64,000 bases of DNA from Procambarus clarkii (lineage: Eukaryota; Arthropoda; Malacostraca; Decapoda; Cambaridae), in NCBI RefSeq assembly GCF_040958095.1, contig NC_091208.1:13968970-14032969 (forward strand), read 5' to 3'. The translations under genes were made by a program, and so were the position numbers. Below the pieces are notes generated by a model. It was not told where the DNA came from. It saw only the letters and a list, made by a program, of their open reading frames with translations, and did not search any database. Shown piece by piece: positions 1,279-51,394 of the stretch (the stretch's first letter is position 1; the number at the start of each line of letters is the position of its first letter).

Positions 1279-2043
1279 ATGGGTATTGAACGTAGAATCG
1301 CTGTTTACCAACGTACCTCGTTGGACATAGAATCGCTGTTTACCAACGTACCTGTGGACAAGACAATCGGGATGATAGCCGACAGAGTGTATCGTGATCC
1401 AGCCTGTACTCCTCTTGACATACCAGAAAATATTCTAAGGAAACTACTCCAAGCTTGTACTAAAGAGGCACCCTTCTTGAGCCCGGATGGGCACATGTAT
1501 AAGCAAGTAGATGGGGTCTCCCCTAGGTGTCCTGTTTGCAAACTTCTACATGGGTACCATCGAGCAAAAAGTCTTAGTCGACATGAACTTGAAACCGGCC
1601 ATATACTGCAGGTATGTTGACGACATTTTTACGCAGGTACCTGATGTCAGACATCTGCAGGAGCTGAAGGAGGCATTTGAGCAGAGTTCCGTGCTGCGTT
1701 TCACTTACGAGATGGAAAAGGATGGGAAGCTGCCCTTTCTAGATGTAACAGTCATGGAAAAGAGCGGAGGTTTCCACACTGCAGTCTACACTAAGGAAAC
1801 GAACATAGGAATGTGCCTAAATGCCAACAGCGACTGCCCAGACAGGTACAAGAGGAGTGTTGTTAACGCATATGTCGACCGTGGTCTCAGCCACAGCTCA
1901 GAATGGAAGCAAGTCGACGAAGAACTCTGTAGGGTAAGGCAGGTCCTAGTCAACAACGGCTCCTCCAATGGTTTCGTGGAAGACATCATAAGAAGGAAAG
2001 TGAAACGCCATGCAACCTCTGAAGAGACAACTAACACAACACC
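1279..2043 (+). pseudogene. PLE-1 reverse transcriptase, 5' part (interrupted by foldback element)
   Basis: Penelope-like RT fragment. The frame starting at 1279 reads the motif A region (LDIESLFTNVP), and a second frame from 1511 carries PLGVLFANFYMG, the catalytic YCRYVDD and KLPFLDVTV, then runs to EETTNTTP. Compared with the intact copy at 19664-21601 it is 5'-truncated just before motif A, carries a roughly 35-bp tandem duplication at about 1291-1350, and lacks 11 bp near 1518/1519. The deletion shifts frame and removes part of motif B (GVAMGSPLG). The coding sequence stops at 2043, where a foldback element begins, and resumes at 14812. It is not functional as it stands. Confidence 0.9.
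2038..2043. repeat. Left 6-bp target-site duplication (AACACC) of foldback element
   Basis: AACACC occurs once at this place in the uninterrupted PLE copies (for example near 16310 and 21030) but twice here, flanking the 12.8-kb insertion. Confidence 0.88.
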
Positions 2044-2053
2044 AGTAGTAGGG

Positions 2054-2235
2054 TGTAAGCGCCACAGGTACCTTTTTTTTTTGGGGAGAGGACCCCTGTG
2101 GACTGTAAGCGCCACAGGTACCTTTTTTTTTTTGGCCAGAGGACCCCTGTGGACTGTAAGCGCCACAGGTACCTTTTTTTTTTGGCGAGAGGACCCCTGT
2201 GGACTGTAAGCGCCACAGGTACCTTTTTTTTTCTG
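2054..2235 (+). repeat. Subterminal ~50-bp tandem repeats, left end (4 copies)
   Basis: Each copy begins TGTAAGCGCCACAGGTACC, continues with a T8-11 run and ends GACCCCTGTGGAC. CCACAGG and CCTGTGG within each unit can form a small hairpin. Copies start near 2054, 2104, 2154 and 2205. Confidence 0.85.
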
Positions 2236-2929
2236 GAAATTCGTGTGTAGCATGTCGGGGTTTTCAGGTAAATTTTTGTCAGTCACAGATTTTAGAAGTA
2301 AGGATTTCTTATGATGAAAATAATTTCAGAGACTTAGAAGTTTGTTAAGGGCTTATGGGAGAAAATCAAATATCGTTTGTAGCGCTTTAGGGTTTTCAGG
2401 TAAATTTTGTCAGTCACAGATTTTTAGAAGTTGTTAAAGTTCTTATAATTAAAAATAATGTCATACGAGTATGGACTGTTTTGTGTGCATATCCATGTGT
2501 ACTATTGTCAAGACCGACAGACACGTGAAGCTATGTGTGTTTATGTGTACCTGTAATTGAACCACACCCCCCTCCCTCCCCCCTTACCTCGCAATCTGTC
2601 GCCTCACCTGTGTTTACTTTAGACGTCAGCCAGACACGGCCTTCAGGTCACCTCGGTAATCGTATCTTATCTTCTCCATAATAATATCTGGACCGTCCCT
2701 CTCTCTCTCTCTCCTCCTATTTCCTTACAGCTATTTTCAGAGTTTCAAATAGTCATAGAAGTTTATTTATATGTTTATGACCGAATTTGTAAAAGGACCA
2801 TTTTCAGAGAATATTGTCTTAGATGTTTTGTTAAGGAAAACAGCCAACTTATCCATAACATTTAGTTTTATATCCATTTACGGCTATTTCATCTGTAAAG
2901 ACCAAATTGAACAGAGCCCAGTTTTAAGC
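2236..2929. other. Outer unique part of foldback left arm
   Basis: Non-coding. It contains two copies of a GGTTTTCAGGTAAATTTTG block (about 2260 and 2391), a C-rich patch near 2570 and a short CT run near 2700. The right-arm counterpart is recognisable but diverged. Confidence 0.6.
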
Positions 2930-3480
2930 TCATATTTCATCAGAGTCCAGTTTATACCGAAAATTCACCAGAGTCTACTTTGAGAGCAAAATTAGTCAGA
3001 GACAGTTTTTAGCTCATATTTCATCAGAGTCCAATTATCAACAGAAATTCGCCAGAGTCTACTTTGAGAGCAAAATTAGTCAGAGACAGTTTTTAGCTCA
3101 TATTTCATCAGAGTCCAATTTATACCTAAAAATGAACAGAGTCTACTTTGAGAGCAAAATTAGTCAGAGACAGTTTTAAGCTCATATTTCATCAGAGTCC
3201 AATTATCAACAGAAATTCGCCAGAGTCTACTTTGAGAGCAAATTTCATCAGTGTCCTGTAATCTGTGAAAATTTGACAAGAGTCCATTTTATACCCAATT
3301 TTCGTCAGAGTCCAGTTTATGCTCAAATTCGCCAGAGTCTACTTTAATAGCAAAATTCATCAGAGTCCAGTTTTCTAGCAAATTTCATCAGTGTCTACTT
3401 TGTGCCAAAATATTCAGAGTCCAGTTCATGATCGAAATTAATCAGAGTCTAATTAAAGACCCAAATTTGGCAGAGACCAC
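2930..3480 (+). repeat. Tandem 85-90-bp repeats expanded in left arm only
   Basis: Units contain CAGAGTCTACTTTGAGAGCA, AGTCAGAGACAG and TTTCATCAGAGTCC. Three to four near-identical units lie at about 2940-3260 and more degenerate ones follow. The right arm keeps fewer units (about 13800-14010), which accounts for most of the arm length difference. Confidence 0.8.
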
Positions 3481-3519
3481 ATTTTCGCTACTAGCAGTCC
3501 AATCCCCCTGAAATTTTAA

Positions 3520-3705
3520 ACAGTCATATTTCAGACGTAGTAAATAAGATCAAAACAGTTATCGAGCTCCAGCTCTTGTCCATCGCCTTAGTTCGTTTAT
3601 ACAAGATCGTTAGTAACAGTCCAATTCCCTGAAATTTAAATCCTCTGTATTTCAGACGTAGTAAATAAGATCAAGTCAGTTACAGAGCTCCAGCTCTTGT
3701 CCCCC
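3520..3705 (+). repeat. Direct repeat pair inside left arm
   Basis: Two copies of a roughly 120-bp unit ending in GAGCTCCAGCTCTTGTCC, each with TTTCAGACGTAGTAAATAAG. They are mirrored in the right arm at about 13580-13770. Confidence 0.75.
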
Positions 3706-4140
3706 TGTATTTGCATATTTTCTCTATATTCAGCTGTGTTCTTCACATTTTTTCCATGTTTTCTGTGTTCATTCCATGTTCTATAAATGTTCACAGCAAG
3801 CTCAGTTCAAATTTTTTCTGCCGTTTTCCCCGTATGTTCACTATGTTCTTTGTCATATTTTCATGTGCATCATATGTTCTCTGTATAACTTTTTATACTC
3901 AATATTCATGTTCTCAATGTTCTTAGCTTGTTCTTCACATGTTCAGTGTTCATTCTTTGTATTCCCTATGTTCCTTATCATGTCTTCATATTCTCTATAA
4001 GTTCATATTCCCTGCATGTTCACTCTATTCATCAACTTTTTCTTACATGTTTTCTGTGTTCACCGTATGTTCACTGTGTTCATTCCCTTACTTAACCTCA
4101 ATTTTTTTATGTTCTTTGTTTCTTCCATTCACTAACTAGT
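3706..4140 (+). repeat. Degenerate TGTTCA-rich repeat block
   Basis: Short irregular repeats of ATGTTC, TGTTCA and TTCTCTGT, mirrored at about 13148-13582. The Phe/Ser/Cys-rich open frames here are by-products of the repeat. Confidence 0.7.
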
Positions 4141-4229
4141 TCTTTGTCAAATAATATTATACTGCATTACAGTTCCCTCAACAATTTTAGTCACCAAGTT
4201 TTATTTTCAAAACTATGTCAAAGTAATTC

Positions 4230-4960
4230 TCGTTGTCAACTTAATAGTTCTACCAACCCCGTTCTTAAACAAATCTACACTTTATTCAGTTCCAAATTTA
4301 CAAAAGACAAACCTTTCTTGTAACTTCTTAACTAAAAATCTTTCGCCAATCAACTGAAACATAGTCACTTTCCTCATTTCTCAACTAACTTATTATCCAA
4401 TCAACCAAAAATTGTCAAAGGAATCTTTCCAACACTGTTCATAACTAAACTTATTCCCTAGTCATCAGAAAATAACCGTGTTCTTCATGTTTCATTGTCA
4501 TTTCATAACTAAAAAAATCTTTCGCCAATCAACTAAAACATAGTCACTTTCGTCATTTCTCAACTAAACTTATTATCCAGTCAACTAAAAATAGTCAGAA
4601 ATAGCCTCGTTCATCACTGTTCTTAACTAAAATAACCTTTCTCTTAGCAAAAATAGTCAAGGGAAACGTTTCCAATACTGTTCATAACTAACTTTATCCA
4701 TCGTCATTCAACTAAAAATAATAACTTTCATCATTTCCTAACTAAACTTATTCCAGTCAACAGAAAATAACCGTGTTCATCATATTTCATTGTCATTTCA
4801 TAACTAAAATTATCCATCAATCAACAGAAAAAGTCATATTCATCATTTCGTAACAGCCATTATGTTTTCGTCAAGTAAGAAAATATAGTCAAAGATATCT
4901 ATCATCGTCGTTCTTAACTTCCATTTATACTTTGTGGAGCACTAAAAATAGTCAAATGTA
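4230..4960 (+). repeat. Degenerate ~60-bp repeats (AACTAAA...CAACTAAAAATAGTC)
   Basis: Irregular units combining TTCATAACTAAA, TCAACTAAAA and ATAGTC recur across the block. It is mirrored at about 12330-13060. Confidence 0.65.
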
Positions 4961-5150
4961 ACTTTTTCAACACTTTCATAACTAAAATTATATGTCGCTA
5001 AGTAAGAAAAATAGTCAAATGTAACTTTTTCAGCACTTTCGTAAAAATTATATGTCGCTAAGTAAGAAAAATAGTCAAATGTAACTTTTTCAGCACTTTC
5101 GTAAAAATTATATGTCGTCAAGTACGAAAAATAGTCAAAGGTGCTCTCCG
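4941..5150 (+). repeat. 60-bp tandem repeat, about 3.5 copies
   Basis: Units contain AAATAGTCAAATGTAACTTT and TTATATGTCG. Two consecutive 60-base lines are nearly identical. The mirrored block is at 12138-12347. Confidence 0.85.
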
Positions 5151-7020
5151 TGACACCAAAGTTACTCTTCGAGAAATCAAAGACACTCTTCAATACATCA
5201 AGGACTTACTCAAAGATACCAAAGTTACACTCTAAGACATCCTTCGAGACATCAAAGACATCCTTTAAGACTTCAAGGGCACTCTTCGAGATATCAAAAG
5301 ACACTCTCAAACACTCAAAATTTACTCGCATCCTCAAAGTTATTCTCAGAGTCATCAAAAAGTTAATCTCAGTCATCAAAATGCTATTCTCTAAGTAGCC
5401 TTTCGTTCATCAGAGAAACTTTCTAAGACATCTTCGTTCATTAAAGTTAATCTCAGAGGCATAAAAGTTATTCTCGGAGCTATCAAAATTAATCTCTAAA
5501 ACAACAAAAGTTAATCTCTGTCATCAAAGTTGATCTGCAAGATATCTTCGAGACATCAAAGTTACTTTTCATTACATCAAAGACGCATTCAAATACTACC
5601 CATGTTCTCAGAAGTCATTCTCTAAGCCATCAATGTTCTTCTCTAAGACATAAAAGTTATTCTCTATGTCATCAAAAAGTTATTCTCTGAGCTAACAAAA
5701 TACTACTCATGTTCTCAAAGACATTCTCCAATTCATCAAAGTTGTTTCAAAGACATCAAAGTTAATCTCAGAGTTATCCAAAGACATTCTCAAACTCATC
5801 TAAAGTTATTCTCTAAGACATCAAAGTTATTCTAAGAGTTATCAAAAGTTATTCTCAGTCATGATATGTTATTCCCTAACTCACTTCCATTCATCAAAGA
5901 CATTCTCTAAGCCCTCAAAGTTATTCTCTAAGACAACAAAGTCATTCCCAGTCATCAAAAAGTTATTCTTCGAAACATAAAATTTGCTCTGTAAGATATC
6001 TTAGTTCATCAAACTTATTCTCAGAGATATCTAAAGTTATTCTCAGAACAATCAAAAGTTATTCTAAGACAACAAAAGTTATTCTCAGAGCTACCCAAAG
6101 CTATTCTCAGAATCACCTTCGTTCGTCAGAGAAACTTTCAAAACATCTTTGTTCATCAAACTTGTTTTCAAAGTCATCAAAAGTTAATCTAAGACATCTT
6201 CTTTCATCAAAGTTATTTTCAGAGACATCTAAAGTTATTCTCAGAGCTATCAAACTTGTTTTCAAAGTCATCAAAAGTTAATCTAAGACATCTTCTTTCA
6301 TCAAAGTTATTTTCAGAGACATCTAAAGTTATTTTCAGAGACATCTAAAGTTATTCTCAGAGCTATCAAACTTGTTCTCAGAGTCATCAAATGTTATTCT
6401 CGAAGTCATCAAAGATATTTTCAGAGACATCTAAAGTTAATTTCTATGTTATAAAAGTTATTCTCAGAGACATCTAAAGTTAATCTTGGTCATCAAAGTT
6501 GATCTCTAAACATCAATGTTGTTCTCCAAGACATCAAAGATGTTCTCAAAATCATAAAAGTTATTCCCAGAGCTATCAAAGTTAATCTCAGAGTTATCCA
6601 AAGATATTCTCATGTCCACAAAAGTTATTCCAAGAGACGTCAAAGTTAATCTCAGACATCTTCGTTCATAAAAGTTATTCTCAGAGACATCTAAAGTTAT
6701 TCTCTAAGACATCAAGTTATTCTAAGAGCTATCAAAGTTATTCTCAGTCATGATATGTTATTCTCTAAGTAACCTTCCATTCATCAAAGACATTCTCTAA
6801 GTCCTGAAAGTTATTCTCTATGACAACAAAGTCTTTCTCAGAGCTATCAAAGTTGTTCTCTAAGACATAGAAGTTATTCTCAGAGTCATCAAAGTGATCT
6901 CTAATTCACCTTCGTTCTCCCAAAGTTGTTCTCTAAGACACCTTCGTTCATCAAAGAAACTCTCCTTCTTCCATCATGTTATTCTTTAAGACATCTTCAG
7001 TCATAAAATTTCTCTCCAAA
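5150..7020 (+). repeat. Degenerate ~20-27-bp repeats (TCAAAGTTATTCTCAGAGACA type)
   Basis: About 1.9 kb of irregular units with the core ATCAAAGTTATTCTC, AGAGACATC or TCTAAGACATC. No open frame exceeds about 85 codons. Mirrored at about 10270-12140. Confidence 0.8.
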
Positions 7021-7089
7021 ATGTAACTAGTTCAGCTTTTCATACCAAACCTGCATTTCTGTTAAAACATATTTTCTTAGTTGCTTTAC

Positions 7090-7660
7090 CCTAAAACTGT
7101 TCTCTGAACTACACTGTTCAAACCTACGTAACCTATCCTCTCCACCCAATGTTACTTAGTTAACGTAACGTTCCTAAACCTAACTTTACCTATCCTAACA
7201 TAACTTACCTTACCTTACCTATCTTACCTAACTTTACCTATCTTACCTAACTTAACCTGCATAACCTAACTTTACCTATGTTACCTTACCTTACCTATCT
7301 TATCTAACCTAACCTAACTTTACCTATGTTACCTTACCTTACCTACCTTTCCTAACTTAAACTGCTTAACCTATCTTACCTATCTTACCTAACTTTACCT
7401 ATCTTACCTAACTTAACTTTCATAACCTAACTTTACCTATCCTAACATAACTTACCTTACCTTCCCTATCTTACCTAACTTTACCTATCCTATCATAACT
7501 TACCTTACCTATCATACCTAACTTAACCAAACTTTACCTATCCTAACTTAACTTACCTAACTTATTCTGCTTAACCTAACTTACCTACATTACCTAACTT
7601 AACCTAACTTATTTAACTTATCTTACCTATCCTAACCTAACTTGCTTTACCTAACTTAAT
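7090..7660 (+). repeat. Degenerate CCTAA-like block in left arm
   Basis: Irregular strings of CCTAACTT, ACCTATC and TTACCT. They resemble, but do not exactly repeat, the arthropod telomere unit CCTAA. The mirror on the right arm is at about 9640-10210. Confidence 0.75.
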
Positions 7661-7769
7661 CTTACATTCCCAAACTGATGTATCCTAACTTATCTAGTCA
7701 AACCAGACATGATCTAACTTACATAAGTATTCCTTCTTGTCTTTTGTGTTTCGTCAATCATCGTCTCAT

Positions 7770-8160
7770 ATTCATTTACTCATTTCTTTAGTTAATTTCT
7801 CAAATGGTCACTTATGGATTTCAAGTGCTATTTGTTAGAGATTGGATATTTAAGCATTTCAAAGAATTATAATTTCTCAAATGGTCACTTATGCATTTCA
7901 AGTGCTATTTGTTAGAGATTGGATATTTAAGCATTTCAAAGAATTTTTGTGTTATATGGGCATTTACTCATTTCAAGGGATAATTTCTCAAATGGACGTT
8001 TTTGCATTTCAAGTGTTATTTGTTTAAGATTGGGTGTTTAACCATTTCAAAGGTTTTTGTTATATATGGGAACTTACTCGTTTCAAGGGCAAATTTCTCA
8101 AATGGTCATTTTTGCAGATCAAGGGTTATTTGTTAAAGTTCATCAAGTTGCTCATAAGTT
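7770..8160 (+). repeat. Direct repeats (ATTTCTCAAATGGTCA type)
   Basis: Four to five units of about 90-110 bp with TTTCTCAAATGG, GCATTTCAAGTG and GGATATTTAAGC. The first two are nearly identical. Confidence 0.75.
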
Positions 8161-8163
8161 GTA

Positions 8164-8430
8164 TTTAGTAGGTTCTATCTTATGTTCTTATTCCCCAACC
8201 CCTTAACCTAACCTCTTGTAATCTTAGTGTATTTAGTAGGTTCTATCTTATGTTCTTATTCCCCAACCCTTTAACCTAACCTTTCAGATGTAGTTTGTTG
8301 AATATATTATCCTTTAACCTAACCTTTCAGATGTAGTTTGTTGAATATATTATCCTTTTCCTAACCTTTCAGATGTAGTTTGTTGAATATATTATCCTTT
8401 TCCTAACCTTTCAGATGTAGTTTTGTTTCT
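8164..8430 (+). repeat. Two short tandem repeats next to the loop
   Basis: A 68-bp unit (TTAGTAGGTTCTATCTTATG...) is present twice, and a unit with TTTCAGATGTAGTTTGTTG three to four times. They are mirrored at about 8870-9135. Confidence 0.75.
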
Positions 8431-8475
8431 CCTTTGTATATTTTTACCCAAACCTTCTTTCCTTCTTTTACTTTG

Positions 8476-8821
8476 TTTTCACATATAAGTTCATTCTTTA
8501 TCATAGTAATAATAAAAATTACAATAGTAAAGAATCAGATCTACTAAGACTTGAAATTGAGAAACAAGAGCTCAAGGGAGTGAGAGCATGAAAGAAGAGC
8601 AAGGAGTAAGAGAGAGGGGGGAGGAAGAGCATGGGAGCACTAAGACTTGAATTTGAGAAAAAGAAAAACTAAGCGAATGAGAGTGAGGGTGTGAGAATGG
8701 GGGCATTAAGACTTGAATTTGAGAAAGAAGAGAGCATTTAAGCAAATGAGGGAGAGAGAGGGGGAGGAAGAGAGAATAAGGGAGAGAGATAGAAAAGGAG
8801 GGTTAGAAGGAGTAGGAGAAT
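8476..8821. other. Loop of foldback element (346 bp, single copy)
   Basis: This is the only part of the element not duplicated on the opposite arm. It starts AT-rich; from about 8545 the + strand is strongly purine-rich (GAGAGAGGGGGAGGAAGAG type). Three copies of an AAGACTTGAAATTGAGAAA-like motif occur at about 8548, 8642 and 8708. No coding potential or RNA gene was recognised. Confidence 0.8.
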
Positions 8822-11800
8822 CAAAGTAAAAGAAGGAAAGAAGGTTTGGGTAAAAATATACAAAGGAGAAACAAAACTACATCTGAAAGGTTAGGAAAAG
8901 GATAATATATTCAACAAACTACATCTGAAAGGTTAGGAAAAGGATAATATATTCAACAAACTACATCTGAAAGGTTAGGTTAAAGGATAATATATTCAAC
9001 AAACTACATCTGAAAGGTTAGGTTAAAGGGTTGGGGAATAAGAACATAAGATAGAACCTACTAAATACACTAAGATTACAAGAGGTTAGGTTAAGGGGTT
9101 GGGGAATAAGAACATAAGATAGAACCTACTAAATACAACTTATGAGCAACTTGATGAACTTTAACAAATAACCCTTGATCTGCAAAAATGACCATTTGAG
9201 AAATTTGCCCTTGAAACGAGTAAGTTCCCATATATAACAAAAACCTTTGAAATGGTTAAACACCCAATCTTAAACAAATAACACTTGAAATGCAAAAACG
9301 TCCATTTGAGAAATTATCCCTTGAAATGAGTAAATGCCCATATAACACAAAAATTCTTTGAAATGCTTAAATATCCAATCTCTAACAAATAGCACTTGAA
9401 ATGCATAAGTGACCATTTGAGAAATTATAATTCTTTGAAATGCTTAAATATCCAATCTCTAACAAATAGCACTTGAAATCCATAAGTGACCATTTGAGAA
9501 ATTAACTAAAGAAATGAGTAAATGAATATGAGATGATGATTGACGAAACACAAAAGACAAGAAGGAATACTTATGTAAGTTAGATCATGTCTGGTTTGAC
9601 TAGATAAGTTAGGATACATCAGTTTGGGAATGTAAGATTAAGTTAGGTAAAGCAAGTTAGGTTAGGATAGGTAAGATAAGTTAAATAAGTTAGGTTAAGT
9701 TAGGTAATGTAGGTAAGTTAGGTTAAGCAGAATAAGTTAGGTAAGTTAAGTTAGGATAGGTAAAGTTTGGTTAAGTTAGGTATGATAGGTAAGGTAAGTT
9801 ATGATAGGATAGGTAAAGTTAGGTAAGATAGGGAAGGTAAGGTAAGTTATGTTAGGATAGGTAAAGTTAGGTTATGAAAGTTAAGTTAGGTAAGATAGGT
9901 AAAGTTAGGTAAGATAGGTTAAGCAGTTTAAGTTAGGAAAGGTAGGTAAGGTAAGGTAACATAGGTAAAGTTAGGTTAGGTTAGATAAGATAGGTAAGGT
10001 AAGGTAACATAGGTAAAGTTAGGTTATGCAGGTTAAGTTAGGTAAGATAGGTAAAGTTAGGTAAGATAGGTAAGGTAAGGTAAGTTATGTTAGGATAGGT
10101 AAAGTTAGGTTTAGGAACGTTACGTTAACTAAGTAACATTGGGTGGAGAGGATAGGTTACGTAGGTTTGAACAGTGTAGTTCAGAGAACAGTTTTAGGGT
10201 AAAGCAACTAAGAAAATATGTTTTAACAGAAATGCAGGTTTGGTATGAAAAGCTGAACTAGTTACATTTTGGAGAGAAATTTTATGACTGAAGATGTCTT
10301 AAAGAATAACATGATGGAAGAAGGAGAGTTTCTTTGATGAACGAAGGTGTCTTAGAGAACAACTTTGGGAGAACGAAGGTGAATTAGAGATCACTTTGAT
10401 GACTCTGAGAATAACTTCTATGTCTTAGAGAACAACTTTGATAGCTCTGAGAAAGACTTTGTTGTCATAGAGAATAACTTTCAGGACTTAGAGAATGTCT
10501 TTGATGAATGGAAGGTTACTTAGAGAATAACATATCATGACTGAGAATAACTTTGATAGCTCTTAGAATAACTTGATGTCTTAGAGAATAACTTTAGATG
10601 TCTCTGAGAATAACTTTTATGAACGAAGATGTCTGAGATTAACTTTGACGTCTCTTGGAATAACTTTTGTGGACATGAGAATATCTTTGGATAACTCTGA
10701 GATTAACTTTGATAGCTCTGGGAATAACTTTTATGATTTTGAGAACATCTTTGATGTCTTGGAGAACAACATTGATGTTTAGAGATCAACTTTGATGACC
10801 AAGATTAACTTTAGATGTCTCTGAGAATAACTTTTATAACATAGAAATTAACTTTAGATGTCTCTGAAAATATCTTTGATGACTTCGAGAATAACATTTG
10901 ATGACTCTGAGAACAAGTTTGATAGCTCTGAGAATAACTTTAGATGTCTCTGAAAATAACTTTAGATGTCTCTGAAAATAACTTTGATGAAAGAAGATGT
11001 CTTAGATTAACTTTTGATGACTTTGAAAACAAGTTTGATAGCTCTGAGAATAACTTTAGATGTCTCTGAAAATAACTTTGATGAAAGAAGATGTCTTAGA
11101 TTAACTTTTGATGACTTTGAAAACAAGTTTGATGAACAAAGATGTTTTGAAAGTTTCTCTGACGAACGAAGGTGATTCTGAGAATAGCTTTGGGTAGCTC
11201 TGAGAATAACTTTTGTTGTCTTAGAATAACTTTTGATTGTTCTGAGAATAACTTTAGATATCTCTGAGAATAAGTTTGATGAACGAAGATATCTTACAGA
11301 GCAAATTTTATGTTTCGAAGAATAACTTTTTGATGACTGGGAATGACTTTGTTGTCTTAGAGAATAACTTTGAGGGCTTAGAGAATGTCTTTGATGAATG
11401 GAAGTGAGTTAGAGAATAACATATCATGACTGAGAATAACTTTTGATAACTCTTAGAATAACTTTGATGTCTTAGAGAATAACTTTAGATGACTTTGAGA
11501 ATGTCTTTGGATAACTCTGAGATTAACTTTGATGTCTTTGAAACAACTTTGATGAATTGGAGAATGTCTTTGAGAACATGAGTAGTATTTTGTTAGCTCA
11601 GAGAATAACTTTTTGATGACATAGAGAATAACTTTTATGTCTTAGAGAAGAACATTGATGGCTTAGAGAATGACTTCTGAGAACATGGGTAGTATTTGAA
11701 TGCGTCTTTGATGTAATGAAAAGTAACTTTGATGTCTCGAAGATATCTTGCAGATCAACTTTGATGACAGAGATTAACTTTTGTTGTTTTAGAGATTAAT

Positions 11801-14800
11801 TTTGATAGCTCCGAGAATAACTTTTATGCCTCTGAGATTAACTTTAATGAACGAAGATGTCTTAGAAAGTTTCTCTGATGAACGAAAGGCTACTTAGAGA
11901 ATAGCATTTTGATGACTGAGATTAACTTTTTGATGACTCTGAGAATAACTTTGAGGATGCGAGTAAATTTTGAGTGTTTGAGAGTGTCTTTTGATATCTC
12001 GAAGAGTGCCCTTGAAGTCTTAAAGGATGTCTTTGATGTCTCGAAGGATGTCTTAGAGTGTAACTTTGGTATCTTTGAGTAAGTCCTTGATGTATTGAAG
12101 AGTGTCTTTGATTTCTCGAAGAGTAACTTTGGTGTCACGGAGAGCACCTTTGACTATTTTTCGTACTTGACGACATATAATTTTTACGAAAGTGCTGAAA
12201 AAGTTACATTTGACTATTTTTCTTACTTAGCGACATATAATTTTTACGAAAGTGCTGAAAAAGTTACATTTGACTATTTTTCTTACTTAGCGACATATAA
12301 TTTTAGTTATGAAAGTGTTGAAAAAGTTACATTTGACTATTTTTAGTGCTCCACAAAGTATAAATGGAAGTTAAGAACGACGATGATAGATATCTTTGAC
12401 TATATTTTCTTACTTGACGAAAACATAATGGCTGTTACGAAATGATGAATATGACTTTTTCTGTTGATTGATGGATAATTTTAGTTATGAAATGACAATG
12501 AAATATGATGAACACGGTTATTTTCTGTTGACTGGAATAAGTTTAGTTAGGAAATGATGAAAGTTATTATTTTTAGTTGAATGACGATGGATAAAGTTAG
12601 TTATGAACAGTATTGGAAACGTTTCCCTTGACTATTTTTGCTAAGAGAAAGGTTATTTTAGTTAAGAACAGTGATGAACGAGGCTATTTCTGACTATTTT
12701 TAGTTGACTGGATAATAAGTTTAGTTGAGAAATGACGAAAGTGACTATGTTTTAGTTGATTGGCGAAAGATTTTTTTAGTTATGAAATGACAATGAAACA
12801 TGAAGAACACGGTTATTTTCTGATGACTAGGGAATAAGTTTAGTTATGAACAGTGTTGGAAAGATTCCTTTGACAATTTTTGGTTGATTGGATAATAAGT
12901 TAGTTGAGAAATGAGGAAAGTGACTATGTTTCAGTTGATTGGCGAAAGATTTTTAGTTAAGAAGTTACAAGAAAGGTTTGTCTTTTGTAAATTTGGAACT
13001 GAATAAAGTGTAGATTTGTTTAAGAACGGGGTTGGTAGAACTATTAAGTTGACAACGAGAATTACTTTGACATAGTTTTGAAAATAAAACTTGGTGACTA
13101 AAATTGTTGAGGGAACTGTAATGCAGTATAATATTATTTGACAAAGAACTAGTTAGTGAATGGAAGAAACAAAGAACATAAAAAAATTGAGGTTAAGTAA
13201 GGGAATGAACACAGTGAACATACGGTGAACACAGAAAACATGTAAGAAAAAGTTGATGAATAGAGTGAACATGCAGGGAATATGAACTTATAGAGAATAT
13301 GAAGACATGATAAGGAACATAGGGAATACAAAGAATGAACACTGAACATGTGAAGAACAAGCTAAGAACATTGAGAACATGAATATTGAGTATAAAAAGT
13401 TATACAGAGAACATATGATGCACATGAAAATATGACAAAGAACATAGTGAACATACGGGGAAAACGGCAGAAAAAATTTGAACTGAGCTTGCTGTGAACA
13501 TTTATAGAACATGGAATGAACACAGAAAACATGGAAAAAATGTGAAGAACACAGCTGAATATAGAGAAAATATGCAAATACAGGGGGACAAGAGCTGGAG
13601 CTCTGTAACTGACTTGATCTTATTTACTACGTCTGAAATACAGAGGATTTAAATTTCAGGGAATTGGACTGTTACTAACGATCTTGTATAAACGAACTAA
13701 GGCGATGGACAAGAGCTGGAGCTCGATAACTGTTTTGATCTTATTTACTACGTCTGAAATATGACTGTTTAAAATTTCAGGGGGATTGGACTGCTAGTAG
13801 CGAAAATGTGGTCTCTGTCAAATTTGGGTCTTCAATTGGACTCTGATTAATTTCGATCATGAACTGGACTCTGAATATTTTGGCACAAAGTAGACTCTGG
13901 CGAATTTTCGGTATAAACTGGACTCTGATGAAATTTGAGCTTAAAACTGTCTCTGACTAATTTGCAAATTTCAGCTTAAAACTGTCTCTGACTAATTTTG
14001 GTCTTTACAGGTGAAATAGCCGTAAATGGATATAAAACTAAATGTTATGGATAAGTGGTCTGTTTTCCTTAACAAAACATCTAAGACAATATTCTCTGAA
14101 AATGGTCCTTTTACAAATTCGGTCATAAACATATAAATAAACTTCTATGACTATTTGAAACTCTGAAAATAGCTGTAAGGAAATAGGAGGAGAGAGAGAG
14201 AGAGGGACGGTCCAGATATTATTATGGAGAAGATAAGATACGATTGCCGAGGTGACCTGAAGGCCGTGTCTGGCTGACGTCTAAAGTAAACACAGGTGAG
14301 GCGACAGATTGCGAGGTAAGGGGGGAGGGAGGGGGGTGTGGTTCAATTACAGGTACACATAAACACACATAGCTTCACGTGTCTGTCGGTCTTGACAATA
14401 GTACACATGGATATGCACACAAAATAGTCCATACTCGTATGACATTATTTTTAATTATAAGAACTTTAACAACTTCTAAAAATCTGTGACTGACAAAATT
14501 TACCTGAAAACCCTGGCTCATAAACACGAATTTGAATTTCTCCCATAAGGCCTTAACAAACTTCTAAGTCTCGGAAATTATTTTCATCATAAGAAACCCT
14601 TACTTCTAAAATCTGTGACTGACAAAATTTACCTGAAAACCCTGGCTCCCAGACACGAATTTCCCAGAAAAACAAAAAAGGTACCTGTGGCGCTTACAGT
14701 CCACAGGGGTCCTCTGGCCAAAAAAAAAAAAAGGTACCTGTGGCGCTTACAGTCCACAGGGGTCCTCTCCCCAAAAAAAAAAGGTACCTGTGGCGCTTAC

Positions 14801-14811
14801 ACCCTACTACT
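8822..14811 (-). repeat. Right arm of foldback element
   Basis: Reverse complement of the left arm. Pairing offsets (coordinate sums) change from 17297 near the loop to 17288 further out and about 16855 at the ends, showing a few indels between otherwise matching arms. Confidence 0.9.
14672..14805 (-). repeat. Subterminal ~50-bp tandem repeats, right end (3 copies)
   Basis: Inverted counterparts of the repeats at 2054-2235, here with three copies and A9-12 runs. Copy number differs between the two ends. Confidence 0.85.
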
Positions 14812-14817
14812 AACACC
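14812..14817. repeat. Right 6-bp target-site duplication (AACACC)
   Basis: Second copy of the duplicated target; the PLE reading continues directly after it with TATACCCCC. Confidence 0.88.
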
Positions 14818-15379
14818 TATACCCCCTATTAGACTATTTTACAGGAACTTCTTTTCCACAGCTCATAAAACAGAGGAAAGGGTCCTGAAAGATATTGTTA
14901 ATAGAAACGTTATCCCTACAGACAAAAATCAGAAGATACAACTGACAATATACTATAAAACCAGAAAAACGGCCAGCCTACTCATGAGAAACTCTCCAGA
15001 CACAAAACAGAACGCTTTAAAAGAGACTAACGTCGTCTATGCCTTCAAATGCCCTCTTGGGGACTGTAAGCTCCAAAAAACCCAGTATATAGGCAAGACA
15101 ACAACATCTCTTTCTAGGCGTTTAACGATGCATAAGCAACAGGGCTCCATTAAGGAACATATAATCTCTTCCCACAACCAAACCATCGCCAGAGAAATCC
15201 TAGTAAACAACACAGAAATCATCGATAGATACAGCGATAGCAGGCGGCTTGACGTTTGCGAGGCACTACACATCAAGAAGTCAACACCAGCAATCAACAG
15301 CCAATTAATGCACAACTATATTCTACCCACTTCAAGACTCCGCTCCAATATAGAAGCATCAAGAAATATGGACAAATAG
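14812..15379 (+). pseudogene. PLE-1 C-terminal part: GIY-YIG endonuclease
   Basis: Continuation of the RT at 1279-2043. It reads PIPPIRLFYRNFF, then a Cys-x4-Cys segment (CPLGDC) and the GIY-YIG-type core (QYIGKTTTSLSRRL), the His residues of the PLE zinc-binding pattern (LTMH and SSHN), and CEALHIKKSTPAIN with the conserved Glu. It ends at a TAG shortly after NIEASRNMD, as in the other copies. The frame is open but detached from its RT by the foldback insertion. An open frame running in from 14615 is only the foldback end read through and is not an original start. Confidence 0.88.
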
Positions 15380-16272: not shown

Positions 16273-16277
<5 letters not shown>

Positions 16278-16881
16278 GAAACGCCATGCAACCTCTGAAG
16301 AGACAACTAACACAACACCTATACCCCCTATTAGACTATTTTATAGGAACTTCTTTTCCACAGCCAATAAAACGGAGGAAAGGGTCCTGAAAGATATTGT
16401 CAGTAGAAACGTTAACCCTACAGACAAAAATCAGAAGATACAACTGACGATTTACTATAAAACCAGAAAAACGGCCAGCCTACTCATGAGAAACTCTCCA
16501 GACACATAGCAGAACGCTTTAAAAGAGACCAACGTCGTCTATGCCTTCAAATGCCCTCTTGGGGACTGTCAGCCTCAAAAAACCCAGTATATAGGCAAGA
16601 CAACAACATCTCTTTCCAGGCGTTTAACGATGCATAAGCAACAGGGCTCCATTAAGGAACATATAATCTCTTCCCACAAACAAACCATCACCAGAGAAAT
16701 CTTAGCAAACAACACAGAAATCATCGATAGATACAGCGATAGCAGGCGGCTTGACGTCTGAGAGGCACTACACATCAAGAAGTCAACACCAGCAATCAAC
16801 AGCTAATTAATGCACAACTATATTCTACCCACTTCAAGACTCCGCTCCAATATAGAAGCATCAAGAAATATGAACCAATAG
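16273..16881 (+). pseudogene. PLE-2 fragment: GIY-YIG endonuclease region, broken
   Basis: Same family as PLE-1 and PLE-4, but 5'-truncated to the region after the RT (from [19 protein letters not shown]). The GIY-YIG core QYIGKTTTSLSRRL is still readable. In-frame stops occur at 16507-16509 (TAG), 16759-16761 (TGA) and 16804-16806 (TAA); the family stop is at 16879. Because it is uninterrupted at [13 protein letters not shown] it documents the empty site of the foldback insertion. Confidence 0.88.
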
Positions 16882-17816
<935 letters not shown>

Positions 17817-19625
17817 CTATTGGTCCATATTTCTTGATGCTTCTATATTGGAGCGGAGTCTTGAGGTGGGTAGAATATAGTTGTGCAATAATTGGCTGTT
17901 GATTGCTGGTGTTGACTTCTTGATGTGTAGTGCCTCGCAAACGTCAAGCCGCCTGCTATCGCTGTATCTATCGATGATTTCTGTGTTGTTTACTAGGATT
18001 TCTCTGGCGATGGTTTGGTTATGGGAAGAGATTATATGTTCCTTAATGGAGCCCTGTTGTTTATGCATCGTTAAACGCCTAGAAAGAGATGTTGTTGTCT
18101 TGCCTATATACTGGGTTTTTTGGAGCTTACAGTCCCCAAGTGGGCATTTGAAGGCATAGACGACGTTAGTCTCTTTTAAAGCGTTCTGTTTCGTGTCTGG
18201 AGAGTTTCTCATGAGTAGGCTGGCCGTTTTTCTGGTTTTATAGTAAATCGTCAGTTGTATCCTCTGATTTTTGTCTGTAGGGATAACGTTTCTATTAACA
18301 ATATCTTTCAGGACCCTTTCCTCTGTTTTATGAGCTGTGGAAAAGAAGTTCCTGTAAAATAGTCTAATAGGGGGTATAGGTGTTGTGTTAGTTGTCTCTT
18401 CGGAGGTTGCATGGCTTTTCACTTTCCTTCTTATGATGTCTTCGATGAAACCATTGGAGAAGCCGTTATTGACTAGAACCTGCCTTACCCTACAGAGTTC
18501 TTCGTCGACTTGCTTCCATTCTTAGCTGTGGCTGAGAGCACGGTCGACGTATGCGTTAACAACACTCCTCTTGTACCTGTCAGGGCAGTCGCTGTTGGCA
18601 TTTAGGCACATTCCTATGTTTGTTTCCTTTGTGTAGACTGCAGTGTGGAAACCTCCGCCCTTTTCCATGACTGTTACATCTAGAAAAGGCAGCTTCCCAT
18701 CCTTTTCCGTCTCGTAAGTGAAACGCAGCACGGAACTCTGCTCAAATGCCTCCTTCAGCTCCTGCAGATGTCTGACATCAGGTACCTGTGTAAAAATGTC
18801 GTCAACATACCTGCAGTATACGGCCGGTTTCAAGTTCATGTCGACTAAGACTTTTTGCTCGATGGTACCCATGTAGAAGTTTGCAAACAGGACACCTAGG
18901 GGAGAACCCATAGCGACCCCATCTACTTGCTTATACATATGCCCATCCGGGCTCAAGAAGGGTGCCTCTTTAGTACAAGCTTGGAGTAGTTTCCTCAGAA
19001 TACTTTCTGGCATGTCAAGAGGAGTACAGGCTGGATCACGATACACTCTGTCGGCTATCATTCCGATTGTCTCGTCCACAGGTACGTTGGTAAACAGCGA
19101 TTCTACGTCCAACGAGGCTCTTATCCCTGTGGCCCGTGCGCCCCGCAGTAAGTCCACAAATTCCTTTGGAGACTTCAGGCTGAAGGCGCAAGGAACATAA
19201 GGAGTCAGCAGGCCGTTGAGTCGCTTTGCCAATCTGTACGTGGGTGTGGGTATCTGGCTAATGATTGGCCGAAGTGGGTTTCCAGGCTTGTGCGTCTTGA
19301 CATTTCCATACGCATATCCAGGTTTATATTCCCCAATGATCTTTGGCAGGTGGAGTCCGGATTTCTTGGCGTTCACAGTTTCGATCAGTTTGTTGACCTT
19401 TGCTTTTAATTCGGCTGTAGTGTCCTTCGTTACCCTTTGGAACTTAGTTTGGTCAGAGAGTATGATGTTCATTTTCGCCAGATATTCGTCTTTTTTAAGA
19501 ATGACATATATTGGCGACTTGTCACCTCTCCTGACAACTATCTCCTTGTTCTCACGAAGGCTTTTAGCTGCCGCTCTAAGCTCGGGGGACAGTATGGTGC
19601 TTCTGTAGTTGCCTTGATTCTTCCC
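17817..19625 (-). pseudogene. PLE-3: Penelope-like RT plus GIY-YIG, one premature stop
   Basis: Nearly identical to PLE-4 in inverted orientation. From the N-terminal side it reads RRGDKSPIYVILKKDEY, the RT motifs (LDVESLFTNVP, AMGSPLGVLFANF, YCRYVDD), then after a single stop at 18522-18524 the linker and GIY-YIG domain, ending at 17817-17819. The stop is a C-to-A change (TCA Ser to TAA) relative to PLE-4. Homology to PLE-4 ends at about 19625, so this copy lacks the first ~45 codons present in PLE-4. Confidence 0.9.
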
Positions 19626-19793
19626 AAGTCACTCTCCTAAATCTGGGCATAAACTGTCATGTTATGTCCAGACCGAGTGAAATGGCCCGGAAAGTGGAGT
19701 TGGAAATTCTGTTGGACGACATATTCGACCTCGAGACGCAAAAGAAGGTCACTACCAAAGATACCTTACAAGCAGAACTTATTGCAGAAGGAG
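19626..19793. other. Spacer at the centre of the PLE-3/PLE-4 inverted pair
   Basis: 168 bp not shared between the two arms. The right 130 bp are the unmatched 5' coding part of PLE-4; the left ~38 bp are unidentified. No target duplication was recognised. Confidence 0.75.
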
Positions 19794-21601
19794 GAAAGAA
19801 TCGAGGCAACTACAGAAGCACCATACTGTCCCCCGAGCTTAGAGCGGCAGCTAAAAGCCTTCGTGAGAACAAGGAGATAGTTGTCAGGAGAGGTGACAAG
19901 TCGCCAATATATGTCATTCTTAAAAAAGACGAATATCTGGCGAAAATGAACATCATACTCTCTGACCAAACTAAGTTCCAAAGGGTAACGAAGGACACTA
20001 CAGCCGAATTAAAAGCAAAGGTCAACAAACTGATCGAAACTGTGAACGCCAAGAAATCCGGACTCCACCTGCCAAAGATCATTGGGGAATATAAACCTGG
20101 ATATGCGTATGGAAATGTCAAGACGCACAAGCCTGGAAACCCACTTCGGCCAATCATTAGCCAGATACCCACACCCACGTACAGATTGGCAAAGCGACTC
20201 AACGGCCTGCTGACTCCTTATGTTCCTTGCGCCTTCAGCCTGAAGTCTCCAAAGGAATTTGTGGACTTACTGCGGGGCGCACGGGCCACAGGGATAAGAG
20301 CCTCGTTGGACGTAGAATCGCTGTTTACCAACGTACCTGTGGACGAGACAATCGGAATGATAGCCGACAGAGTGTATCGTGATCCAGCCTGTACTCCTCT
20401 TGACATGCCAGAAAGTATTCTGAGGAAACTACTCCAAGCTTGTACTAAAGAGGCACCCTTCTTGAGCCCGGATGGGCATATGTATAAGCAAGTAGATGGG
20501 GTCGCTATGGGTTCTCCCCTAGGTGTCCTGTTTGCAAACTTCTACATGGGTACCATCGAGCAAAAAGTCTTAGTCGACATGAACTTGAAACCGGCCGTAT
20601 ACTGCAGGTATGTTGACGACATTTTTACACAGGTACCTGATGTCAGACATCTGCAGGAGCTGAAGGAGGCATTTGAGCAGAGTTCCGTGCTGCGTTTCAC
20701 TTACGAGACGGAAAAGGATGGGAAGCTGCCTTTTCTAGATGTAACAGTCATGGAAAAGGGCGGAGGTTTCCACACTGCAGTCTACACAAAGGAAACAAAC
20801 ATAGGAATGTGCCTAAATGCCAACAGCGACTGCCCTGACAGGTACAAGAGGAGTGTTGTTAACGCATACGTCGACCGTGCTCTCAGCCACAGCTCAGAAT
20901 GGAAGCAAGTCGACGAAGAACTCTGTAGGGTAAGGCAGGTTCTAGTCAATAACGGCTTCTCCAATGGTTTCATCGAAGACATCATAAGAAGGAAAGTGAA
21001 AAGCCATGCAACCTCCGAAGAGACAACTAACACAACACCTATACCCCCTATTAGACTATTTTACAGGAACTTCTTTTCCACAGCTCATAAAACAGAGGAA
21101 AGGGTCCTGAAAGATATTGTTAATAGAAACGTTATCCCTACAGACAAAAATCAGAGGATACAACTGACGATTTACTATAAAACCAGAAAAACGGCCAGCC
21201 TACTCATGAGAAACTCTCCAGACACGAAACAGAACGCTTTAAAAGAGACTAACGTCGTCTATGCCTTCAAATGCCCACTTGGGGACTGTAAGCTCCAAAA
21301 AACCCAGTATATAGGCAAGACAACAACATCTCTTTCTAGGCGTTTAACGATGCATAAACAACAGGGCTCCATTAAGGAACATATAATCTCTTCCCATAAC
21401 CAAACCATCGCCAGAGAAATCCTAGTAAACAACACAGAAATCATCGATAGATACAGCGATAGCAGGCGGCTTGACGTTTGCGAGGCACTACACATCAAGA
21501 AGTCAACACCAGCAATCAACAGCCAATTATTGCACAACTATATTCTACCCACCTCAAGACTCCGCTCCAATATAGAAGCATCAAGAAATATGGACCAATA
21601 G
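19664..21601 (+). CDS. PLE-4: Penelope-like element reverse transcriptase with GIY-YIG endonuclease, 645 aa, open
   Basis: Best-preserved polyprotein in the window. It would reverse-transcribe element RNA and nick target DNA. Residues ~1-100 match the region before the RT, including a DKS segment at the place of the PLE DKG motif (RRGDKSPIYVILKKDEY). RT motifs: KPGNPLRPI, LDVESLFTNVP (A), AMGSPLGVLFANFYMG (B), YCRYVDDIF (C, catalytic Asp pair), GKLPFLDVTV. The C-terminal ~200 aa carry CPLGDC, QYIGKTTTSLSRRL and CEALHIKKSTPAIN of the GIY-YIG nuclease. The stop is at 21599-21601. The first Met is at 19664, but the true N terminus is missing: the conserved N-terminal module is found only in the terminal repeats. 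Hence it is open but 5'-truncated, and its promoter is not visible. Confidence 0.93.
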   Translation: MSRPSEMARKVELEILLDDIFDLETQKKVTTKDTLQAELIAEGGKNRGNYRSTILSPELRAAAKSLRENKEIVVRRGDKSPIYVILKKDEYLAKMNIILSDQTKFQRVTKDTTAELKAKVNKLIETVNAKKSGLHLPKIIGEYKPGYAYGNVKTHKPGNPLRPIISQIPTPTYRLAKRLNGLLTPYVPCAFSLKSPKEFVDLLRGARATGIRASLDVESLFTNVPVDETIGMIADRVYRDPACTPLDMPESILRKLLQACTKEAPFLSPDGHMYKQVDGVAMGSPLGVLFANFYMGTIEQKVLVDMNLKPAVYCRYVDDIFTQVPDVRHLQELKEAFEQSSVLRFTYETEKDGKLPFLDVTVMEKGGGFHTAVYTKETNIGMCLNANSDCPDRYKRSVVNAYVDRALSHSSEWKQVDEELCRVRQVLVNNGFSNGFIEDIIRRKVKSHATSEETTNTTPIPPIRLFYRNFFSTAHKTEERVLKDIVNRNVIPTDKNQRIQLTIYYKTRKTASLLMRNSPDTKQNALKETNVVYAFKCPLGDCKLQKTQYIGKTTTSLSRRLTMHKQQGSIKEHIISSHNQTIAREILVNNTEIIDRYSDSRRLDVCEALHIKKSTPAINSQLLHNYILPTSRLRSNIEASRNMDQ

Positions 21602-23394: not shown

Positions 23395-23717
23395 ACGCTA
23401 CTCCCACCCAGCGCCCACCCAGCGCCCACCCAGCGCCCACCCAGCGCCCGCCCGGCGTCCACCCAGCCCCCGCCCGGCGTCCACCCAGCCCCCGCCCGGC
23501 GTCCGCCCAGCGCCCACCCAGCGCCCGCCCAGCGCCCACCCAGCGCTCGCCCAGCACCCACCCAGCGCCCACCTAGTGCCCGCCCAGCGCCCGCCCAGCG
23601 CCCACCCAGCGCCCGCTCAGCGCTCGCCCAGCGCCCGCCCAGCGCCCGCCCAGCGCCCGCCCAGCTCCCGCCCAGCGCCCACTCAGCGCCCGCCCAGCGC
23701 CCGCCCAGCGCCCGCCG
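23395..23717 (+). repeat. 11-bp GC-rich minisatellite (CAGCGCCCACC type), about 29 units
   Basis: The 11-bp period is not a multiple of three, so every frame encodes an 11-residue Ala/Pro repeat (APAQRPPSAHP type) every 33 bp. Units vary between CAGCGCCCACC and CAGCGCCCGCC. It lies directly before, and open in frame with, the ATG at 23718, so it could extend the protein N-terminally with a proline-rich stretch. Confidence 0.8.

Positions 23718-34037: not shown

Positions 34038-34126
<89 letters not shown>
34038..34126. repeat. (TA)n tract
   Basis: Left boundary of the 288-bp satellite. Confidence 0.95.
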
Positions 34127-34127
<1 letters not shown>

Positions 34128-34825
34128 CTTTAGAACACTTTCCCACCAGGAGACTCGAACCCTAGCCAACACAGAAGCCTTCCAGCAACTGGCATAACAG
34201 GTACGCCTTAACCCTCTCCACCACCTGCTCAGACCCTTAAAAGAGATGGTAATTTCGGAGTATTTAAATACCACAAAGATCACCACCTCCCAAGAGCACT
34301 AGAGCAAGTGAGGGGTCATTTAGACGTTAATTTCATCAAGTCCCTGTTAATATGGGAAGACACAGTGTCTATGCTTAAGGCACAACTCTCCTAAACACGA
34401 GAGTCAAGTATACAACTTTAGAACACTTTCCCACCAGGAGACTCGAACCCTAGCCAGCACAGAAGCCTTCCAGCAACTGGCATAACAGGTACGCCTTAAC
34501 CCTCTCCACCACCTGCTCAGACCCTTAAAAGAGATGGTAATTTCGGAGTATTTAAATACCACAAAGATCACCACCTCCCAAGAGCACTAGAGCAAGTGAG
34601 GGGTCATTTAGACGTTAATTTCATCAAGTCCCTGTTAATATGGGAAGACACAGTGTCTATGCTTAAGGCACAACTCTCCTAAACACGAGAGTCAAGTATA
34701 CAACTTTAGAACACTTTCCCACCAGGAGACTCGAACCCTAGCCAGCACAGAAGCCTTCCAGCAACTGGCATAACAGGTATGCCTTAACCCTCTCCACCAC
34801 CTGCTCAGACCCTTAAAAGAGATGG
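34127..34825 (-). repeat. 288-bp satellite, inverted block (about 2.4 monomers)
   Basis: Minus-orientation monomers of the array that follows. The inversion joint at 34826-34846 carries a short duplicated CTCCTGGTGG/GTCCTGGAG patch. Confidence 0.92.
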
Positions 34826-49800: not shown

Positions 49801-51324
49801 TTCTGTGCTGGCTAGGGTTCGAGTCTCCTGGTGGGAAAGTGTTCTAAAGTTGTATACTTGACTCTCGTGTTTAGGAGAGTTGTGCCTTAAGCATAGACAC
49901 TGTGTCTTCCCATATTAACAGGGACTTGATGAAATTAACGTCTAAATGACCCCTCACTTGCTCTAGTGCTCTTGGGAGGTGGTGATCTTTGTGGTATTTA
50001 AATACTCCGAAATTACCATCTCTTTTAAGGGTCTGAGCAGGTGGTGGAGAGGGTTAAGGCGTACCTGTTATGCCAGTTGCTGGAAGGCTTCTGTGCTGGC
50101 TAGGGTTCGAGTCTCCTGGTGGGAAAGTGTTCTAAAGTTGTATACTTGACTCTCGTGTTGAGGAGAGTTGTGCCTTAAGCATAGACACTGTGTCTTCCCA
50201 TATTAACAGGGACTTGATGAAATTAACGTCTAAATGACCCCTCACTTGATCTAGTGCTCTTGGGAGGTGGTGATCTTTGTGGTATTTAAATACTCCGAAA
50301 TTACCATCTCTTTTAAGGGTCTGAGCAGGTGGTGGAGAGGGTTAAGGCGTACCTGTTATGCCAGTTGCTGGAAGGCTTCTGTGCTGGCTAGGGTTCGAGT
50401 CTCCTGGTGGGAAAGTGTTCTAAAGTTGTATACTTGACTCTCGTGTTTAGGAGAGTTGTGCCTTAAGCATAAACACTGTGTCTTCCCATATTAACAGGGA
50501 CTTGATGAAATTAACGTCTAAATGACCCCTCACTTGCTCTAGTGCTCTTGGGAGGTGGTGATCTTTGTGGTATTTAAATACTCCGAAATTACCATCTCTT
50601 TTAAGGGTCTGAGCAGGTGGTGGAGAGGGTTAAGGCGTACCTGTTATGCCAGTTGCTGGAAGGCTTCTGTGCTGGCTAGGGTTCGAGTCTCCTGGTGGGA
50701 AAGTGTTCTAAAGTTGTATACTTGACTCTCGTGTTTAGGAGAGTTGTGCCTTAAGCATAGACACTGTGTCTTCTCATATTAACAGGGACTTGATGAAATT
50801 AACGTCTAAATGACACCTCACTTGCTCTAGTGCTCTTGGGAGGTGGTGATCTTTGTGGTATTTAAATACTCCGAAATTACCATCTCTTTTAAGGGTCTGA
50901 GCAGGTGGTGGAGAGGGTTAAGGCGTACCTGTTATGCCAGTTGCTGGAAGGCTTCTGTGCTGGCTAGGGTTCGAGTCTCCTGGTGGGAAAGTGTTCTAAA
51001 GTTGTATACTTGACTCTTGTGTTTAGGAGAGTTGTGCCTTAAGCATAGACACTGTGTCTTCCCATATTAACAGGGACTTGATGAAATTAACGTCTAAATG
51101 ACCCCTCACTTGCTCTAGTGCTCTTGGGAGGTGGTGATCTTTGTGGTATTTAAATACTCCAAAATTACCATCTCTTTTAAGGGTCTGAGCAGGTGGTGGA
51201 GAGGGTTAAGGCGTACCTGTTATGCCAGTTGCTGGAAGGCTTCTGTGCTGGCTAGGGTTCGAGTCTCCTGGTGGGAAAGTGTTCTAAAGTTGTATACTTG
51301 ACTCTCGTGTTTAGGAGAGTTGTG

Positions 51325-51328: not shown

Positions 51329-51394
<66 letters not shown>
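51329..51394. repeat. (TA)n tract
   Basis: Right boundary of the 288-bp satellite. Confidence 0.95.

Follow-up and report, generated by a model that had tools for sequence, protein, structure and literature searches.

A palindrome of ~12.8 kb at positions 2044-14811 of a 64,000-nucleotide stretch of the Procambarus clarkii genome (C59:13968970-14032969 of the 4.03-Gb assembly that was searched, hereafter the window) is, with a probability of roughly 0.86, a non-autonomous member of the Polinton (Maverick) family that draws its enzymes from integrase-coding Polintons in the same genome. The element and these Polintons share their ends, 6-bp target-site duplications and a terminal block of ~280 bp, and nearly all scored integrase copies in the genome are open. 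The copies of the palindrome have homologous loops, and their arms are closely alike within each copy.

The palindrome starts with AGTAGTAGGG at 2044 and ends with CCCTACTACT at 14811. It is flanked on both sides by AACACC (2038-2043 and 14812-14817), as read from the flanks and from the empty-site alignment described below. Self-alignment divides it into a left arm of 6,432 bp (2044-8475, plus strand), a central loop of 346 bp (8476-8821) and a right arm of 5,990 bp (8822-14811, minus strand). The outermost bases on the plus strand are AGTAGT (2044-2049) and ACTACT (14806-14811), the former being the (AGT)2 motif of Mavericks; in the vertebrate Mavericks described in part of PMC8097293, (AGT)2//(ACT)2 is the commonest end motif and the duplications are 6 bp long. 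Repeat analysis of the left end showed tandem terminal units of ~50 bp with the pattern TGTAAGCGCCACAGG..T-run..CCCCTGTGG (2054-2236, plus strand), and similar units are also present at the ends of integrase-coding Polintons. Alignment of the two arms gave 5,947 matches and 41 mismatches (99.3%, gaps excluded), with gaps of ~450 bases that are largely differences in repeat number. The arms are less alike in their outer parts (94.9% over the outer 0.84 kb vs. 99.3-99.5% over the inner 5.1 kb by BLAST with gaps counted; 37 substitutions in 1,564 aligned bases over the first ~2 kb vs. 4 in 4,423 over the remainder with gaps excluded). No stop-to-stop open reading frame (ORF) of at least 134 aa in the ORF list lies wholly within the element, and on this basis "coding-free" is a fair label. 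The polymerase B (PolB) and the rve integrase of an autonomous Polinton are thus absent among ORFs of this size, and the element can be filed only as a non-autonomous Polinton derivative. By structure it is a foldback, in which long, internally repetitive inverted repeats form most of the element.

The element is inserted in a Penelope-like ORF. Translation showed that the 5′ part of this target (1511-2043, plus strand) breaks off at ...TTNTTP and that the 3′ part (14812-15379, plus strand) continues at IPPIRLFYRNFF beyond the element. The same junction is found in an uncut counterpart of 673 aa (19580-21601), from which the family was read; Pfam matches of the uncut ORF are RVT_1 (E 2e-6, slightly under the cut-off) and a weak, sub-threshold GIY-YIG. 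Joining both flanks with a single AACACC and aligning them to the other copies in the window gave gapless alignments at three empty sites (16273-16379, plus strand, 96.3% over 107 bp; 18319-18438, minus strand, 98.3% over 120 bp; 20980-21099, plus strand, 98.3% over 120 bp). A preliminary description of the window had reported the exact inverted termini with AACACC on both sides, the lengths of the arms and the loop, the lack of coding sequence, the Penelope-like frame that resumes after the insertion and the three uninterrupted copies, and all of these were recovered on re-reading, self-alignment and flank alignment. The surrounding region (17817-21601) contains two near-identical Penelope-like frames in inverted orientation, with (AT)n and ACCTA/TAGGT repeats close by.

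Searches of the genome showed that the ends belong to a family of many copies. A 192-bp end query gave at least 71 matches (40 of 1,196 candidates scored). The exact 25-bp end pattern AGTAGTAGGGNGTAAGNGCCACAGG occurs 259 times (128 forward and 131 reverse) and its reversed control occurs in neither direction, which excludes chance. The listed ends number 168; of these, 126 make up 63 plus/minus pairs less than 40 kb apart, which have exact ends and so lean towards young copies. The span is 11.5-14.0 kb in 50 of the 63 pairs (47 of 60 when the three known helpers are set aside), with a median of 12,473 bp and no pair between 9.9 and 11.5 kb. Shorter elements of 1.9 kb and 6.8-9.9 kb occur, and those examined (1.9 kb, 9.3 kb and, on C3, 6.8 kb) have exact duplications. 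Exact 6-bp duplications flank eight of the ten whole copies, namely the window element and nine further fetched copies, and all of the first ten pairs taken in the order of the list, for which only the ends were read. Two of the latter are one insertion, seen twice through an inverted segmental duplication; overall, the duplications are exact in 18 of 20 end pairs and in 17 of 19 independent insertions. The counts cover loci with two clearly paired ends and omit L025-L028, L061-L063, L080 and L081 (one end only or pairing unclear). The right end of the C3 copy (L019) is short by exactly one ACT trinucleotide, with its CAGATG duplication intact. On contig C187 (L026:4367-4485), two family elements lie nearly end to end; the spacer of ~15 bp between them, AGGGTGTAACACCCT, is itself an inverted repeat and is similar to the end sequence. 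An end pair of 23.8 kb (C15:48355847-48379682) was considered as a long autonomous form and rejected after the middle 16 kb had been examined. By eye, this part contains LINE-type reverse transcriptase-like coding sequence with foldback-arm sequence adjoining, and the pair is interpreted as a foldback into which other elements have inserted. The 18.9-kb copy on C67 was read by eye as a foldback element plus a nested element, the latter having long direct repeats and a gag-like ORF of 1,004 aa.

Candidate helpers were searched for with the PF03175 profile, and a PolB ORF was located inside the end pair C4:22356565-22370440. This copy of 13.9 kb has the same ends as the foldbacks, terminal inverted repeats (TIRs) of ~1 kb and the duplication GTCAAG. 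It encodes PolB (PF03175, E 7.1e-18), an integrase with a chromodomain (rve, E 7.9e-9) and an A32-type ATPase (Pox_A32, E 1.4e-7), and a match to the C48 protease lies below the cut-off. When the full-length PolB ORF was scanned, Pfam gave no match, apparently because of a filter. Several matches to the C4 TIR flank PolB matches elsewhere in the genome. 6-bp duplications flank each of the nine integrase-coding copies for which both ends were read (C4, C57, C71, C61, C16, C38, C55, C86 and C8; all but C4, C86 and C8 read by eye), and the integrase match is free of stops in each. PolB matches are present in at least five of the nine (C4, C71, C16, C55 and C61) among the matches listed. Eight of these copies are 13.2-14.4 kb long, and C61 is 18.9 kb long. 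In the genome as a whole, the integrase frame is uninterrupted in 107 of 110 scored copies (out of 5,777 candidates, not all scored), and three of the 63 end pairs (C4, C86 and C8) each contain one of the 110. Pairs of helper TIRs at ~19-27 kb (C55:29933471, C12:43446194 and C30:29603863) are assumed to be nested insertions.

A direct link between the foldback and the helpers lies in the right-terminal 280 bp of the window element (14532-14811, minus strand). Both ends of the integrase-coding C86 copy match this block at 96% identity, and the end of a C5 coding satellite matches it at 98%. Past these 280 bp, the arm abruptly becomes much less like C86 and C5. Compared with the element's own left end, the first 90 bp of the right end are identical and the rest is 92% identical, with an offset of one terminal unit. 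From these sequence comparisons, we read the shared block as a putative exchange of ends among helper and satellites, which would be expected if they replicate together. The preliminary description had proposed a giant foldback family, to be recognised by further copies with the same ends, by 6-bp duplications across the copies and by a longer relative encoding integrase and polymerase B or another transposase. The many copies with the same ends, the palindromic loops and the duplications at most end pairs read bear this out, and the C4 copy is a relative that encodes integrase and PolB, at a similar size. The kinship with Polintons, hinted at there, is now definite from the shared ends, the 6-bp duplications and the integrase- and PolB-coding relatives.

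The foldback copies are the window element, C60, C15, C65, C75 and, its nested insertion apart, C67; in our reading, C58 is a foldback copy minus most of one arm. Their arms are ~5.7-6.4 kb long (5.0 kb outside the nested part in C67). The window loop is 86-88% like the loops of C60, C15 and C65, and only a short stretch of it is present in C75. A genome-wide loop search gave 1,526 first-look candidates, of which 40 were scored, every one at least 94% identical. All six fetched loop neighbourhoods are palindromic, with arms 95-100% alike. Inside each copy, arm identity is 99.1-99.9% (gaps excluded) in all ten copies measured, whether foldback or of the sister group below. However, the best single matches of the window arms to other copies are only 77-97% identical over parts of the arms, indicating concerted evolution of the arms within copies. 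In C15, C60 and C65b the arms are equally alike along their whole length, and in C75 the likeness is patchy. The orientation of the window loop, opposite to that in C60, C15 and C65b, was considered as the mark of an internal inversion; this was dropped because, in a near-perfect palindrome, such an inversion is indistinguishable from insertion in the other orientation.

A sister group with the same ends consists of C20, C36 and C31, together with C3, which has no genes. The arms are 3.1-3.5 kb long where measured (C20, C36 and C3), and C20, C36 and C31 have a coding centre of 5-6 kb. The cargo comprises three neighbouring BIR-domain ORFs, one of which also has a RING finger, three related ORFs with a mutual identity of 27-30%, and an ORF of 425 aa; cargo ORFs of these kinds lie at L011:3554-5020 (minus strand), L011:5496-6191, L012:666-1400, L030:526-1092 and L030:2540-3814. 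The 425-aa ORF is open in 93 of the 99 copies scored, which are the best of 614 candidates and thus biased to intact ones, and its conservation across the other 98 is 94-99%. It lies inside 5 of the 63 end pairs, with spans of 12.1-12.95 kb. The protein has no significant relative in Pfam or the PDB. Its C-terminal part matches the phage family phrog_19090, of unknown function (E 1.6e-10); an NCBI protein search with the element-family protein gave one match, from P. clarkii (98%); and its structure model is unusable, with a predicted local distance difference test score (pLDDT) of 33. One of the three related ORFs, for which the sequence search gave no significant Pfam family, was modelled at a pLDDT of 83 (best of five; 10 aligned sequences). 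Its best match in the PDB is a viral macro domain (E 1.7e-6, template-modelling (TM) scores of 0.51/0.63), followed by many macro domains and a few designed hydrolases. In the viral library, where a predicted model is compared with predicted models, a Wsv206-like protein of a shrimp nimavirus ranks first (E 4.6e-10, TM scores of 0.74/0.76) and Wsv059 of white spot syndrome virus ranks fourth. One sister-group protein thus models as a nimavirus-like macrodomain fold. A search of IMG/VR for relatives of the satellite proteins confirmed none.

We infer, as the preliminary description did, that the foldbacks transpose through enzymes acting in trans, here those of the helpers. The window element retains what is probably required in cis, namely its tandem terminal units and the (AGT)2/(ACT)2 ends. 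Helper Polintons, mostly 13-14 kb long, would provide the integrase for 6-bp staggered insertion, and their protein-primed PolB would copy the foldback DNA. Ends could be swapped between elements during that replication, and replication or repair through a hairpin would maintain the likeness of the arms. Slide-back initiation is the mechanism of adenovirus-type protein-primed replication, and by analogy the (AGT)2 ends would fit slide-back initiation of protein-primed synthesis. The C3 end that is one trinucleotide short would be the expected trace of a missed slide-back (n = 1). Homogenisation of the arms may proceed through hairpin or panhandle intermediates, through in-place conversion, or through both; the unevenness of the window arms points to a contribution from an in-place or recombinational step. 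The length of 12-13.5 kb, close to that of the helpers, suggests that foldback DNA may also be packaged in helper capsids, with shared descent as a serious rival.

Several observations weigh against a Polinton derivative served by these helpers. In the listed matches to the C4 Polinton, the window arms align over only ~300 bp (up to ~0.8 kb in other copies), so that C4 does not account for the inner ~5 kb. One round of homogenisation during transposition would not leave the window arms as uneven as they are. The search for helper capsid proteins gave no convincing Pfam match and no PDB match, with one sub-threshold Capsid_N in a relative, and genes beyond PolB and integrase were read in C4 only. 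Among the whole copies, C58 has no duplication and C75 matches at only five of six bases; the duplications of C36 and C16 are GTGGTG within simple repeats and carry little weight. Nevertheless, the other origins considered for the palindrome fare poorly. The least probable is an assembly artefact caused by a long read in inverted-duplicate form, or an inverted duplication that happened once in the genome. Such read artefacts exist, but here 41 substitutions and several indels separate the arms, inverted arms of 1-6 kb are present in ten whole copies, the further loops are palindromic in six of six cases, and the duplications and empty sites fix the exact borders. A foldback transposon of the FB, TU or Galileo kind, mobilised by a cut-and-paste transposase that has no relation to Polintons and with ends alike by convergence, is very unlikely. 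Foldback and Galileo also have long, internally repetitive inverted repeats, but Galileo belongs to the P superfamily, with TIRs of up to ~1.26 kb and 7-bp bounding sequences (both from part of PMC3573991). The duplications here are 6 bp and common to helper and foldback copies, the window element contains no ORF of transposase size, and its ends and terminal units are 96% identical over 280 bp to those of an integrase-coding Polinton. It is also improbable that the sister group is the mobiliser and its 425-aa protein an unrecognised recombinase. This group has the same ends, and the ORF is open in most scored copies; however, Polintons that share these ends already offer open integrases. The only family match of the protein is the PHROG family of unknown function, a point that is not decisive since its model is unusable.

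Two further alternatives concern parts of the proposed cycle. The likeness of the arms could result from gene conversion in place after insertion alone, rather than from a transposition cycle. This is a real but less favoured possibility: the inner part of the window arms is far more alike than the outer part and C75 is patchy, whereas the similarity is even throughout C15, C60 and C65b. For the narrow range of lengths, shared descent from a few founders with no packaging limit has an even chance of being correct. The homologous loops indicate a single origin of the foldback group, the 425-aa ORF is strongly conserved among its scored copies, elements of 1.9 kb and 6.8-9.9 kb occur with exact duplications in those examined, and the listed pairs lean young. 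On the other side, the foldback arms have diverged widely through repeat turnover and indels while the total has stayed at ~12-13 kb, and the structurally different coding group is of similar length. Within the reading as helper-dependent Polinton derivatives, it is conceivable, though rather unlikely, that a capsid-forming Polinton has both the foldbacks and the BIR/macrodomain elements as its satellites, whose genomes its polymerase copies, its particles package at ~12-13.5 kb and its integrase inserts, and that the nimavirus-like macrodomain and anti-apoptotic genes of the coding satellites aid the spread of all three partners, or competition among them, in virus-infected crayfish cells.

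Elsewhere in the window, a satellite array with a 288-bp unit (57 copies, ~99% alike) occupies 34844-51329, and a further array of 2.5 copies of a 288-bp unit lies just before it (34121-34826). An ORF of 634 aa with RVT_1 (24316-26220; E 8.8e-22), which follows an array of the 11-bp unit CCCGCCCAGCG at 23403-23716, is probably part of a LINE-type element.

Non-autonomous DNA transposons are usually short. The crayfish elements are almost as long as their helpers, and one group is a near-perfect palindrome of ~12 kb in many copies. Whether animal Polintons form particles becomes testable with them: if the satellites are packaged, particle DNA should be enriched for elements of ~12.5 kb. The palindromes are also a natural system for the concerted evolution of inverted repeats. 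The macrodomain fold in common with nimavirus proteins hints at gene traffic, in either direction, between Polinton satellites and the lineage of the white spot virus. A search of the open-licence PMC literature turned up no paper that describes Polintons of a non-autonomous, palindromic or satellite kind. The accessible text of PMC4028283 cites, and disputes, an older proposal of Tlr elements as non-autonomous Polinton derivatives. In the accessible parts of two crayfish or decapod repeat surveys, Mavericks appear in general terms only (PMC10454600) and as trace fractions in two other crayfish species (PMC13130569).

Polintons encode a protein-primed PolB, an integrase, a packaging ATPase, a protease and capsid proteins (PMC4028283 and PMC5718144, each in part), and vertebrate Mavericks are 12.7-24.6 kb long, with TIRs of 46-1,447 bp in intact ones (PMC8097293, in part). 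The window element resembles them in its (AGT)2...(ACT)2 ends, its 6-bp duplications and an end sequence akin to that of PolB- and integrase-coding copies in the same genome. However, it is without PolB, integrase and capsid genes, it is wholly palindromic, and its arms of ~6 kb exceed the vertebrate TIRs. With Foldback and Galileo of Drosophila it has long, tandem-repetitive inverted repeats in common, whereas the crayfish arms are ~5 times longer and 6-bp duplications with Polinton ends take the place of the P-type transposase and 7 bp; in Galileo, the TIRs are longest where the transposase ORF is absent and grow through repeat gain (PMC3573991, in part). If the satellite proposal is true, the crayfish germ line would hold a virophage-like system of several partners, with giant palindromes as its copy-back genomes. 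The window element resembles virophages, helper-dependent satellites and the copy-back defective genomes of protein-primed viruses in being a gene-poor DNA with the cis-acting ends of a putative helper, a palindromic form and nearly the length of that helper; it differs in that its inner arms do not align to the C4 helper copy among the matches listed.

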